Positions 2 through 32,054 of a stretch of 32,138 nucleotides of DNA are shown here, piece after piece; the stretch's first letter is position 1, and each line of letters starts with the position of its first letter. The notes below the pieces were generated by a model, which saw only the letters and a list, made by a program, of their open reading frames with translations, was not told where the DNA came from and did no database searches. Source of the DNA: Elusimicrobiaceae bacterium (GTDB lineage: Bacteria > Elusimicrobiota > Elusimicrobia > Elusimicrobiales > Elusimicrobiaceae); the NCBI GenBank assembly GCA_017528825.1, contig JAFXOI010000010.1, positions 1 through 32,138 on the forward strand, given 5' to 3'. The position numbers were made by a program, and so were the translations under genes.

Positions 2-1051
2 ACCATGGCTAATTTAGACGTAACAATGGAAAACAATGATTTAACATTTAATTTAATTACTCCTAATAATACATCTGACCCCAATGTAATCAGAGTAACG
101 AATAGCAAACTGCCCAATGTACGCCTAGCCAGTTACTTAGATGATAATCCGAAATTTGCCGGACAATTACATTGTGAGGCACTTACCGGAGATGAGAGAG
201 CAAACCGGCTATGCGGTGGTTTGTTACAAGGGCAAGAGTTAACGTCAGCTAACGGATATACAGGTTATCTTTTAGACCAGGAAATTGATCAAACCACTTG
301 TGGCTTTGCCAGTAAATCGTGGAGTACCAGCAAGACAAAGTGTTACAAAGATACCGCTTCTCGTTGCCAAGCCCTTGGTGTGGATGTCATATCAGGGCAA
401 GCAGATCAGTGCGGCTATACCGATACAAAGAGCCAGACACTTAGTGAGGAAATAGCCTGTGTGGCAACGAAAAATTTCGGGTGTGATTATAGTATCATAG
501 AGGCAGGCGGGATTTGCCAAACAACACGTGATGCTGCCCAACAATATCAATGTCAAGGCTCTACTATTAAACAAGGCGGAAAATGTGTAGGGGAGGTAGC
601 TGCTGCTTGTCACCAATCTACTATAGAAAATGGAGGAATTTGTGAAGTTCCCCAAGGTGGTGCGGGTTGTAAGGAATTAAAAGCTATTCAAGCAGGCGGT
701 GTTTGTGTTAGTTATGCAAATGTTGATTCCGCTGCCTGTAATAGTGCCCAGCAGGTATCTGGTGCCATTATTTGTAATGCTACAGGAAAGTATTGTGGAT
801 CTAATAGTACTTTTAACGGAGGAGTTTGTGTAACCAATGCGGATAGCTCAGCTTGTTGGAAAAGTACCCTTACAAACGGTTCTGTTTGTTATGCAAATAT
901 TGAGGGAAGCCGATGTGACACTTCGAAGACTGGTCATGTTTCTTATAATGATACTTCTTGTTGTTGCGGCGATTATTGTGGCAATGCACCAACTTGTTCT
1001 GCCGAACGCTGTTCCTCTGTCAGAGCACAATACGCACAGTATTTTGAATAA
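2..1051 (+). CDS. Cys-rich repeat pilin-like protein, 5' end missing
   Basis: This is the 3' part of a type IV pilin-like gene that begins outside the window. The frame is open from base 2, and the ATG at 5 is internal: the residues around it (ANLDV) align with ENLDV at about residue 48 of the complete paralogue at 19268-20437. The shared block LPNVRLASYLD, a GDERANRLC segment, a GY..YLLDQ segment and a KCYK motif follow. The C-terminal two thirds are repeats of the form C-x3-[T/x]-[I/F/L]-x2-G-[G/S]-x-C, with cysteines 11 apart and short linkers (for example CQGSTIKQGGKC, CHQSTIENGGIC, CWKSTLTNGSVC). The end is a Cys cluster (SCCCGDYC). It should be an extracellular pilus or pseudopilus subunit, since paralogues have the pilin N-terminus. 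The role of the repeat is unknown, and a disulfide-stapled surface domain is an inference. Confidence 0.75.
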   Translation, partial: TMANLDVTMENNDLTFNLITPNNTSDPNVIRVTNSKLPNVRLASYLDDNPKFAGQLHCEALTGDERANRLCGGLLQGQELTSANGYTGYLLDQEIDQTTCGFASKSWSTSKTKCYKDTASRCQALGVDVISGQADQCGYTDTKSQTLSEEIACVATKNFGCDYSIIEAGGICQTTRDAAQQYQCQGSTIKQGGKCVGEVAAACHQSTIENGGICEVPQGGAGCKELKAIQAGGVCVSYANVDSAACNSAQQVSGAIICNATGKYCGSNSTFNGGVCVTNADSSACWKSTLTNGSVCYANIEGSRCDTSKTGHVSYNDTSCCCGDYCGNAPTCSAERCSSVRAQYAQYFE

Positions 1052-16040: not shown

Positions 16041-16154
16041 CGGCTCTGAAGCAAAAAAGTATTGTTTTGGGGCTGTTTTGTAAACTCGCTGAACTCAAAC
16101 ATACAAAACAGACAACTCCCCAAAACAATACTTTTTTAAACGCTTCCAAAGCCG
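16041..16154. repeat. Long interrupted inverted repeat (MITE- or REP-like)
   Basis: A 114-base inverted repeat. The perfect core is a 20-bp arm (16053-16072 against 16118-16137) plus a further 10 bp (CTGTTTTGTA 16073-16082 against TACAAAACAG 16102-16111), separated by a 6-base one-sided bulge, with a 19-base loop. Outer arms CGGCTCTGAAGC (16041-16052) and GCTTCCAAAGCCG (16142-16154) also pair with mismatches. It contains no gene. It could be a small non-autonomous element or a structured RNA. Confidence 0.75.
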
Positions 16155-16234: not shown

Positions 16235-16262
16235 TTGACACCGTTTTTTTTTTTAGTATAAT
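16235..16262 (+). promoter_or_regulatory. Consensus sigma70 promoter with an 11-T spacer tract
   Basis: Perfect -35 TTGACA (16235-16240) and perfect -10 TATAAT (16257-16262) with a 16-base spacer. Bases 16244-16254 of the spacer are eleven consecutive T. Slippage in this tract would change the spacing between the two boxes and so the promoter strength of the pilin gene at 16291. Confidence 0.75.
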
Positions 16263-16290
16263 TTTAAAAATCGTACAAAAGGAGAAAATA

Positions 16291-16803
16291 ATGAAACAAG
16301 CATTTACACTCATAGAGTTACTAGTAGTTGTGTTAATTATAGGGATATTAAGTGCCGTTGCTTTGCCACAATATGAAAAAATAGTTGAACGAAGCAAGGC
16401 AACCCAAGCATTTGCTCTATTAAATCCTCTCATTCAGGCATATCAAGCAAGTTATTTAGAAAATGGCACCTATGTGGCTAGCTTAGATGAATTAGCCATT
16501 TCTCTTCCTTCTAGTTTTACGGGAGAAGATGCTAATCACTTATCTAATGGAGAGTGGGAAGTTGTTTTCAGCAACTCTTACGGAATACAAGTGTCCGTTA
16601 AAAGAAAAAGTGGAAAATATAAAGATGCGGTAAGTTTTTTATATGTATTTGCCAAGAGACCTGATCCCGTACCGGTTGGTCAATGGCTATGTTTTGAAAA
16701 TATTGCTACATTTCCGGGAAAAGCGGATGATTATTGCAAAAAAATTTTAAATGGAACAAAAGATGCATCATCAGGTTCTAGTGATCGTGTGTATAGACTA
16801 TAA
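16291..16803 (+). CDS. Type IV pilin-like protein (prepilin)
   Basis: A 170-residue prepilin with leader and assembly helix MKQA|FTLIELLVVVLIIG, including Glu at +5. The C-terminal part has a cysteine pair (WLC...DYC) fitting the pilin D-region disulfide. The globular part differs from the pilin at 5456-5938 apart from the N-terminal helix. Start: the ATG at 16291 has AAAAGGAG 6 bases upstream and begins directly with the prepilin leader; in-frame codons further upstream overlap the promoter and are rejected. It is monocistronic, with a consensus promoter carrying a poly-T spacer (16235-16262) and a terminator at 16804-16833. Phase-variable expression is a testable possibility. Confidence 0.92.
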   Translation: MKQAFTLIELLVVVLIIGILSAVALPQYEKIVERSKATQAFALLNPLIQAYQASYLENGTYVASLDELAISLPSSFTGEDANHLSNGEWEVVFSNSYGIQVSVKRKSGKYKDAVSFLYVFAKRPDPVPVGQWLCFENIATFPGKADDYCKKILNGTKDASSGSSDRVYRL

Positions 16804-19267: not shown

Positions 19268-20437
19268 CTAGCATTTCGGTGCATTAGATGGGCAATAAGG
19301 CCCTTCACAACACCCTCCGTCGTAAATTACACTGTAATAGGTACCACCACTTGCCAAACAAGTTCCCGGTGCATTAGCAACACACTTGCCCCCAACCCCA
19401 ATCCTACTTCCGCGGCAGGTTTCATGAGCGGCTACTTGTGCTACGCAGCTGGCACCATCAGTAAATGTACTATATCTACAACCACCAACTTCTGCTATAC
19501 ATTGACTTCCTGAAGTATAAGTACCACTAGTACAAGATGAGCTGTCATATTGTGCAATACATTTTGATTCATTTTTATATGTCTTTTCCCCGTCGCCATA
19601 TGCCCGATTAGAGTAATGAATCGCTCCATCGAAGACAGAATTATTACACTGACCTCTACAAATACTTCCCGGATTATATATAGAGTTGTTACATCCTCCA
19701 CCTCCTCCCTTATCAGAACATTCTCCTCCTTCTTTTACATCCAAATAAGCACAACCACCCCATTGACCAACACATTTAGCTCCTTCTTCAATTACTAATC
19801 TATTATTTTCTGTTCCAACATTTCCGTTATACCCGCAAAAGCCATCCTTATAGGGCATGCCGTTGGCTTTACAGCGTTCTTCATTGGTTTTATAACATTG
19901 TGTTTGTTTATTGGACCATACCCGGCTGACGCCGTCACACGTGGCTTTATCTACCGCTTGGTCTAATAAATACTGTGTGTAACCATCTTCTGTCGTGCTT
20001 AGTTCCTCTCCATTAAGAAGCTTACTGCATAGTCTTGTACCACGCCCGTTTTCCCCGTCGTTAGATTCGCAATATAAGTGTCCGGCCCGTATGGTGTTTT
20101 CATCCAAATAACTAGCTAAACGTACGGTAGGCATTTTATTATTTATGGCACGCACTACGTTGGCAGTGCCGTCATCATTAATGGTTTCTATGGTATATTG
20201 CACATCACCACTGGGCATACTGACATCCAAGTTTTCCATATTAGCGGTATAAAGACCGCTACTCATTCTAATGGCTTCTTCGGCATCTTTTATCGCTTTG
20301 GCTCCGGGGAGCATAGTACTCCAATGGGTTTTATCTACGGCCCCTTGGTACATAGGGATAGCTATAGCCGATAGTACTCCGATAATGAGTACCACTACTA
20401 ATAATTCTACGAGGGTAAACCCCTTTTTTATTTGCAT
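19268..20437 (-). CDS. Cys-rich repeat pilin-like protein (complete)
   Basis: A 389-residue prepilin-type protein and the only complete member of the family in the window. Leader and helix are MQIKKG|FTLVELLVVVLIIG with Glu at +5. Residues 45-130 share the block LDVSMP...PTVRLASYLDEN with the gene at 2-1051. A C..SR.WSNKQTQCYK region follows. From about 200 onward there are repeated cysteine pairs 11 apart (CNNSIYNPGSIC, CTSGTYTSGSQC, CRYSTFTDGASC, CRGSRIGVGGKC), one unit expanded by about 18 residues, and a terminal GGCCEGPYCPSNAPKC cluster. It should be exported and anchored through the pilin helix; repeat function is unknown. AAAAAGGAG lies 6 bases before the ATG. The gene ends at its own terminator, and the upstream leader is unusually rich in hairpins (20460-20700). 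Confidence 0.9.
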   Translation of the reverse strand: MQIKKGFTLVELLVVVLIIGVLSAIAIPMYQGAVDKTHWSTMLPGAKAIKDAEEAIRMSSGLYTANMENLDVSMPSGDVQYTIETINDDGTANVVRAINNKMPTVRLASYLDENTIRAGHLYCESNDGENGRGTRLCSKLLNGEELSTTEDGYTQYLLDQAVDKATCDGVSRVWSNKQTQCYKTNEERCKANGMPYKDGFCGYNGNVGTENNRLVIEEGAKCVGQWGGCAYLDVKEGGECSDKGGGGGCNNSIYNPGSICRGQCNNSVFDGAIHYSNRAYGDGEKTYKNESKCIAQYDSSSCTSGTYTSGSQCIAEVGGCRYSTFTDGASCVAQVAAHETCRGSRIGVGGKCVANAPGTCLASGGTYYSVIYDGGCCEGPYCPSNAPKC

Positions 20438-20471
20438 ATATAACTCCTTTTTCTCGGGCCCGTAACAGCAT

Positions 20472-20666
20472 AAAAAACGGCCGCTGTTTCAGAGCCGAAA
20501 CCAGCGACCCCAAAAACAACAGCCGTAGTTTGCCGTACCCGAAGGTACGGCAAACACTCGGCACAAAACAAAGAGCTCATGACTTCCCTTTATTTTGTGC
20601 CTAGAACGACTGCTTTTGGACTGGTTTCTTGCTAGGAATTACCTAGCTGTCCGTATCCATATACGG
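20472..20666 (-). ncRNA. Palindrome-rich region, candidate structured leader RNA
   Basis: Intergenic stretch of about 300 bases before the Cys-rich pilin, on its strand. It contains a 12-bp stem closed by a TTCG tetraloop (20528-20539 / 20544-20555), a 13-bp stem with one mismatch (20561-20573 / 20588-20600), an enclosing pair GAAACCAG / CTGGTTTC (20497-20504 / 20621-20628), and small hairpins at 20631-20647 and 20651-20666. A hairpin followed by six T on the minus strand (T run at 20472-20477) could terminate an RNA before the pilin start. A C(UUCG)G tetraloop argues for function as RNA from the minus strand. No known RNA family is recognised. Confidence 0.4.
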
Positions 20667-31412: not shown

Positions 31413-31488
31413 CCCCCGCGCATAAAATATAAAATCCGGCTTTATGCCGGATTTTAGTTTTATATGAGGGGAGCACGCAAACTGCTTT
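31413..31488 (+). repeat. Direct repeat, copy 2
   Basis: This second copy of the tRNA-Leu 3' end/terminator segment starts with the same CCCCCGCGC and ends with GGGGAGCACGCAAACTGCTTT, reaching exactly the last base of the pilin fragment's stop codon. Small indels and substitutions separate the copies (roughly 88 % identical by eye). Confidence 0.85.
31431..31455 (-). terminator. Terminator of the right-edge pilin gene
   Basis: A 10-bp stem (AAAATCCGGC / GCCGGATTTT) with a 5-base loop lies within repeat copy 2, 33 bases after the pilin stop on the minus strand, with A/T-rich flanks on both sides. Confidence 0.75.
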
Positions 31489-32054
31489 TAATCAGCGCAT
31501 TTATGTGCAGCTGGGCAAGCAGCTCCTTCACAACATCCAGTGCCTTCATATACAACTTGCTGACAGCCGCCCCCTGCATTACAAATGGCTTTTCCTCCAT
31601 CATGAATAGTGGCACCCCAACAGCCATCAAAAGAATTTGCTATGCAGGACCCACCGGCATATATTTGTGCCCGCCAACATCCATCCACTACATCTCCTAT
31701 ACAACTGGCCCCCGCATACACTTTTGCATTATTACATCCATGTACAGATGTGCCTTTACAAACCCCTCCTTCTTCAACAGTTGCATTTTGTACATTGGTG
31801 TATCCACACACGCCATCTTTATAGGGCATGCCATTTGCTTCACAACGGTCTTCTTCTGTTTTATAACACTTTGTTTGTTTATTAGACCATGTGCGGCTTA
31901 CTCCGTCACACGTGGCTTTATCGATATTTTGATCTAACAAATAGGCCACGTATCCATCATCTGTCGTTTTTAAGTCTTGCCCCATTAAAAGTTTCTCACA
32001 TAGCCGATTGGCCCGTTCATCTCCGCTTTTCGCTTCACAATGCAGTTGCACCAA
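31488..32054 (-). CDS. Cys-rich repeat pilin-like protein, 5' end missing
   Basis: A 188-codon open frame matching the C-terminal part of the Cys-rich pilins at 2-1051 and 19268-20437: QLHCEAKSGDERANRLC, YLLDQNIDKATCDGVSRTWSNKQTKCYK, then the clearest repeats of the family. Cysteines at 107, 126 and 145 are 19 apart, as are 99, 118 and 137, giving alternating 8/11 spacing (GCNNAKVYAGASC, GCWRAQIYAGGSC). The end is GCCEGAACPAAHKC. The N-terminal pilin helix is missing: family similarity stops near 32050 and an in-frame stop lies just upstream. The TTG at 32054 is not believed to be a natural start. Either the gene is broken or the window edge is misjoined. Confidence 0.72.
   Translation of the reverse strand: MVQLHCEAKSGDERANRLCEKLLMGQDLKTTDDGYVAYLLDQNIDKATCDGVSRTWSNKQTKCYKTEEDRCEANGMPYKDGVCGYTNVQNATVEEGGVCKGTSVHGCNNAKVYAGASCIGDVVDGCWRAQIYAGGSCIANSFDGCWGATIHDGGKAICNAGGGCQQVVYEGTGCCEGAACPAAHKCAD

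Follow-up and report, generated by a model that had tools for sequence, protein, structure and literature searches.

Promoters with a pure T or A homopolymer in the spacer between their -35 and -10 boxes precede many pilin-like genes in an Elusimicrobiaceae bacterium and its sister species. They are probably tuned by slippage, and hence phase-variable, with 16 bp as the working spacer length. Together they suggest a large set of switches through which DNA slippage would reshuffle the surface fibres. The window, the whole stretch of DNA that was analysed, is a contig of 32,138 nucleotides (JAFXOI010000010.1) from a genome of 1.53 Mb in 41 contigs (G000).

A poly-T spacer promoter upstream of a single pilin-like gene

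The sequence-only reading of the window had described perfect TTGACA and TATAAT boxes, with eleven T residues in a 16-bp spacer, ahead of a pilin at 16291. Direct reading bears this out exactly (Table 1). AGGAG begins after 17 bases 3' of TATAAT, and the gap from TATAAT to the ATG is 28 bp. The predicted protein contains the prepilin N-terminal methylation motif and a hydrophobic helix (N-terminus MKQAFTLIELLVVVLIIGILSAVALPQY), and its PF07963 match is above the cut-off. The gene stands alone, with an ankyrin-repeat ORF on one side and ferredoxin/FeoB genes on the other. The -10 box reads TATCAT, TACGAT, TACCAT or TAGCAT in other poly-T pilin promoter copies. The element at 16235-16262 is best explained as a sigma-70-type promoter that drives a single-gene pilin unit, and as a member of a family of promoters with poly-T/A spacers. 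Two other roles for the tract were considered. A terminator was ruled out, as the tract has no hairpin ahead of it. Translational switching via an in-frame ORF that runs from 16210 through the tract was set aside, because the promoter is the shared feature and the pilin has its own ribosome-binding site and its own start at 16291.

Upstream of the promoter, the window holds a perfect 20-nt inverted repeat (16053-16137; AAAAAAGTATTGTTTTGGGG, 45-nt loop). The sequence AAAAAGTATT reappears directly upstream of several further poly-T pilin promoters.

Table 1 Features of the pilin promoter, its gene and the leader RNA in the window.
Feature	Position	Strand	Basis and remarks
-35 box TTGACA	16235..16240	+	Direct reading; TTGAC at the equivalent place in other poly-T pilin promoters
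16-bp spacer CCG-T11-AG	16241..16256	+	Direct reading; CCG = 16241-16243, AG = 16255-16256
T11 homopolymer tract, candidate slippage site	16244..16254	+	Direct reading; among the 32 T>=10 runs of the genome
-10 box TATAAT	16257..16262	+	Direct reading
Ribosome-binding site AGGAG	16280..16284	+	Direct reading
Type IV pilin-like gene, 170 aa	16291..16803	+	ORF; PF07963 N_methyl, E=3e-6
Likely terminator, a G+C-rich hairpin downstream of the pilin stop codon	16808..16829	+	Direct reading; inference
Leader RNA, window copy	20470-20614	-	34 further pilin leaders in other loci of the genome

Long T runs mark pilin promoters in the genome

Perfect -35/poly-T/-10 sites occur twice in the whole genome, compared to none in the reversed-pattern control, and the second site also precedes a pilin gene. 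With up to three mismatches allowed, the genome holds four such sites (the perfect ones included), and a pilin gene is next in all four. We also collected every run of T>=10 in the genome, independent of the promoter motif. A pilin-like gene lies ~40-260 bp downstream on the same coding strand for 31 of these 32 runs. The remaining run is ~105 bp from a contig end and has flanks like those of the other pilin promoters. The 300-bp windows upstream of pilin genes cover 1.1% of the strand sequence, which gives log10 P ~ -59 for the placement of 31 of the 32. Dinucleotide composition predicts ~73 runs of T>=10, compared to the 32 observed. Since all but one of the runs present are at pilin genes, this indicates that long T runs are avoided outside pilin promoters. 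Inclusion of T8 and T9 tracts brings the set to 36 tract loci, representing 33 distinct sequences.

The genome contains 113 pilin-like genes with PF07963 matches above the cut-off, and 64 to at least 150 such matches were found in the sister species G004, G006, G007, G011, G015 and G019 (G011, at least 150). These numbers are far above the need of one pilus. Four PF00437 proteins, consistent with PilB/GspE and PilT types, represent the type IV filament ATPases. The assembly machinery is therefore encoded in the genome, and the 16291 pilin would be assembled on the surface. The window also encodes long cysteine-rich pilin-like proteins (2-1051, plus strand; 19268-20437 and 31488-32054, minus strand) with C-terminal repeat units of ~20 aa that contain GG-x-C. 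One of these proteins was checked against Pfam and matched at the N-terminal motif only.

The promoter architecture is shared by sister species

The motif was found in 52 of 61 genomes of the same genus, with up to ~150 matches per genome, a count in which variable gaps make a few sites count twice; the reversed-motif control gave 2 matches in total. Across 248 genomes sampled from the phylum, the motif was restricted to one family, probably Elusimicrobiaceae, with at most three matches in any genome outside it.

We inspected 394 kb of the sister species G011, picked by contig rather than by match. This sample contains 33 poly-T promoters, and a recognised pilin gene follows every one. Of these, 29 have T11, and the T11 form reads TTGACATCG-T11-GC-TACATT, with a 16-bp spacer. 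A second, poly-A form is present in 24 copies (loci L229-L248), TTGACAAATC-A11-C-GATAAT, also with a 16-bp spacer, and 23 of these have a recognised pilin gene downstream. Across G011 and three further species picked to hold promoters (G012, G049 and G044; 1.17 Mb in all), each of the 89 runs of at least 10 T, or A on the opposite strand, is a pilin-type promoter, and 88 have a recognised pilin gene downstream. Run-length counts in the sister species fall steadily to 8, drop to 0-3 at 9 and return at 10-13. We had considered G014, G017 and G020, which have equal motif counts, as close relatives for ortholog comparison, and dropped them after their listed promoters were found to be mismatched by sequence.

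Spacer length centres on 16 bp while tract length varies

The usual promoter forms in the window's genome are GCTTGACT-(C/T)G-T(n)-GC-TACGAT and CTTGACATCG-T(n)-AG-TATCAT, with tracts of T8-T16 and spacers of 13-20 bp. The 33 distinct promoters have spacers of 13 (4), 14 (1), 15 (4), 16 (16), 17 (5), 18 (2) and 20 bp (1). The window copy is thus at the mode, and 17 of the 33 are off it. A mode of 16 bp is seen in almost all sampled species, the exception being G017 (six copies). This length is built in various ways (3+T11+2, 2+T12+2 and 4+A11+1). Because different flanks combine with T11, T12 or A11 to give the same 16-bp mode, we take the working spacer to be 16 rather than 17 bp, and the T11 of the window looks like the full-length state rather than one that is a base short.

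Near-identical paralogs differ in tract length. In G044, four copies that show 1-4 mismatches over 63 bases of flank have tracts of T12, T12, T11 and T9, and copies in the window's genome with 2-3 flank mismatches have T12 and T11. These comparisons are between paralogs in consensus assemblies, with one genome per species, so that the differences cannot yet count as within-population variation, and single tract-length values are open to assembly error in homopolymers. The tracts are nearly always pure: 92 are uninterrupted, and only 3 T-rich interrupted candidates were seen, 1 of which resembles a broken member of the family. Relatives of the window pilin were also compared in genomes that carry a name. 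Two reindeer MAG copies have a poly-T promoter (T11 and T12), and the stretch with the highest identity to the window pilin, in RUG14242, is without one.

The sequence-only reading had interpreted the tract as a candidate slippage switch in which one added T would give an optimal 17-base spacer. The idea of a switch is supported in part by the size of the promoter family, the length differences among near-identical copies and the retained purity. The 17-base optimum is unsupported, given the common 16-bp spacer.

Proposed switching and alternative explanations

We propose that replication slippage would add or remove one or more bases in the tract, and that this would alter the distance and the rotation between the -35 and -10 boxes. 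Transcription would be good with a spacer of ~16 bp and low when the tract is shorter or longer. Each pilin gene would then drift between high and low expression across the population. Since about half of the promoters in G000 deviate from the mode, a mixed set of ON and OFF genes is predicted. On this proposal the length differences would be caused by slippage, slippage would be frequent and reversible, and spacing would set expression. As in contingency loci of the promoter-spacer type, a pure homopolymer is found between the -35 and -10 boxes of a surface-structure gene, the tracts are localised to such genes, and their purity is kept beyond chance. Loss of mismatch repair was rejected, as a MutS of the mismatch-repair type was found; with this protein present, there is no obvious rise in slippage to expect. 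Indel-prone homopolymers alone, a review cautions, do not amount to phase variation (PMC11868660), and for this reason we rate switching no higher than probable.

The tract could instead be a fixed structural spacer, in which poly(dA:dT) is kept for its stiffness and twist, or for a protein that recognises it, as a means to set promoter strength or to regulate the pilin genes jointly. The 16-bp length would then be held, and length variants would be rare and mostly damaging mutations. This would account for a 16-bp mode that persists though the flanks differ, for most copies being at 16 bp in several species (53 of 58 homopolymer promoters in G011), for the T12 tract of all G014 copies, and for T-type and A-type promoters presenting the same duplex with the strands exchanged. 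A stiff A/T spacer, however, could mix the two bases, yet the tracts are almost entirely pure, the rest of the genome avoids long runs, and about half of the distinct promoters in the window's genome depart from 16 bp. We consider a fixed spacer unlikely.

Shared descent offers another account of the same data: pilin cassettes would multiply together with their promoter, and the length differences would be neutral decay. Promoter flanks and pilin N-termini are indeed repeated across the genome, and several copies are at contig ends, but the tract stays pure while the flanks diverge, in one genome the T and A tracts share a single spacer length, and the architecture is common to most of the genus. 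Such a copy-paste relic is improbable. A random T run beside random consensus hexamers, or an assembly error, has next to no probability. Each species is represented by one genome and some sequencing types are error-prone at homopolymers, but the localisation of the runs to pilin promoters in five genomes refutes this explanation, and the reversed-motif controls are near zero. Slippage-tuned promoters with a 16-bp working length are therefore the reading that we favour.

Comparison with known systems

The closest described case is in Helicobacter pylori, which also has T or A homopolymers in promoter spacers of surface-protein genes. In strain 26695, nine loci have T or A homopolymers between the -35 and -10 boxes, and tracts at this position or beside the -35 box are enriched at outer-membrane-protein genes (hopZ, babB, hopG and others) (PMC4081817). 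For sabA and hp_0350, the length of the tract beside the -35 box tunes output, a rheostat effect that was measured (PMC4081817). Strain length variation and its effect on transcription have been measured in H. pylori, whereas the Elusimicrobiota promoters are read here from sequence. The Elusimicrobiota family, which belongs to an unrelated phylum, differs further in having tens to more than 100 such promoters, nearly all at one gene family (pilin-like), with the tract always inside the spacer and a 16-bp mode. Bifidobacterium breve is likewise a gut bacterium, and its pilus expression is governed by replication slippage in a G tract (PMC9187656), the kind of control proposed here. The B. breve tract is intragenic and acts as an ON/OFF control in two clusters, in contrast to the promoter-spacer tracts of Elusimicrobiota.

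Repeat length also controls fimbrial promoters: Haemophilus influenzae hif has a TA repeat within a divergent promoter, and Bordetella fim has a poly-C tract outside the spacer. Both are single loci with another type or place of repeat. In the vlp promoters of Mycoplasma hyorhinis, poly-A lies between the -35 and -10 boxes of a multigene surface-protein family and yields combinatorial expression. The vlp genes are few and form one cluster, whereas the Elusimicrobiota genes are dispersed and single, have mostly poly-T tracts and encode type IV pilin-like products. The Vlp system is cited in PMC11868660. We found no paper on phase variation in Elusimicrobiota in the literature searched, which took in few subscription papers. 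The kind of promoter is already known from H. pylori and Mycoplasma, and the lineage and the scale are new.

Most contingency promoters described so far come from pathogens, in which each genome has a handful of such loci. The lineage studied here, from gut and rumen and mostly uncultured, seemingly reserves nearly all of its long homopolymers for pilin promoters. If the switching is real, many pilin expression patterns would coexist within each population, with a bearing on adhesion, on phage escape and on the reason why small genomes carry 60-150 pilin genes. Our judgement is evenly balanced on whether this family of Elusimicrobiota has the largest known promoter-spacer contingency system, in which tens to more than 100 dispersed single-gene units per genome, each with a slippage-prone T or A tract tuned around a 16-bp spacer, would provide a combinatorial, reversible and heritable pilin repertoire alongside a set controlled by a new leader RNA of the attenuator type.

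A leader RNA upstream of other pilin genes

The window's genome has ~74 pilin genes without a tract, and 35 of them have a common leader. The leader is predicted to fold into a three-way junction, the closing strand of which (CGGCUGU) can alternatively pair in a terminator-like hairpin with AACAGCCG-UUUUUU, and the two structures are mutually exclusive. Of the 34 further leaders of the genome, 28 are in an alignment (A1). Covariation in the three-way junction is strong: 98% of cells are paired, and both sides have changed in 55 cells, compared to 12.7 in shuffles. The terminator-like hairpin is likewise supported by covariation. Neither the window copy nor 12 loci with the leader gave an Rfam match. 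The pilin leader looks like a candidate new attenuator or riboswitch. A search of the sister stretches gave one clear match, in G011 (L248, 10887-11023, minus strand; 35.5 bits), and the gene that follows it is lipoprotein-like, not a pilin.
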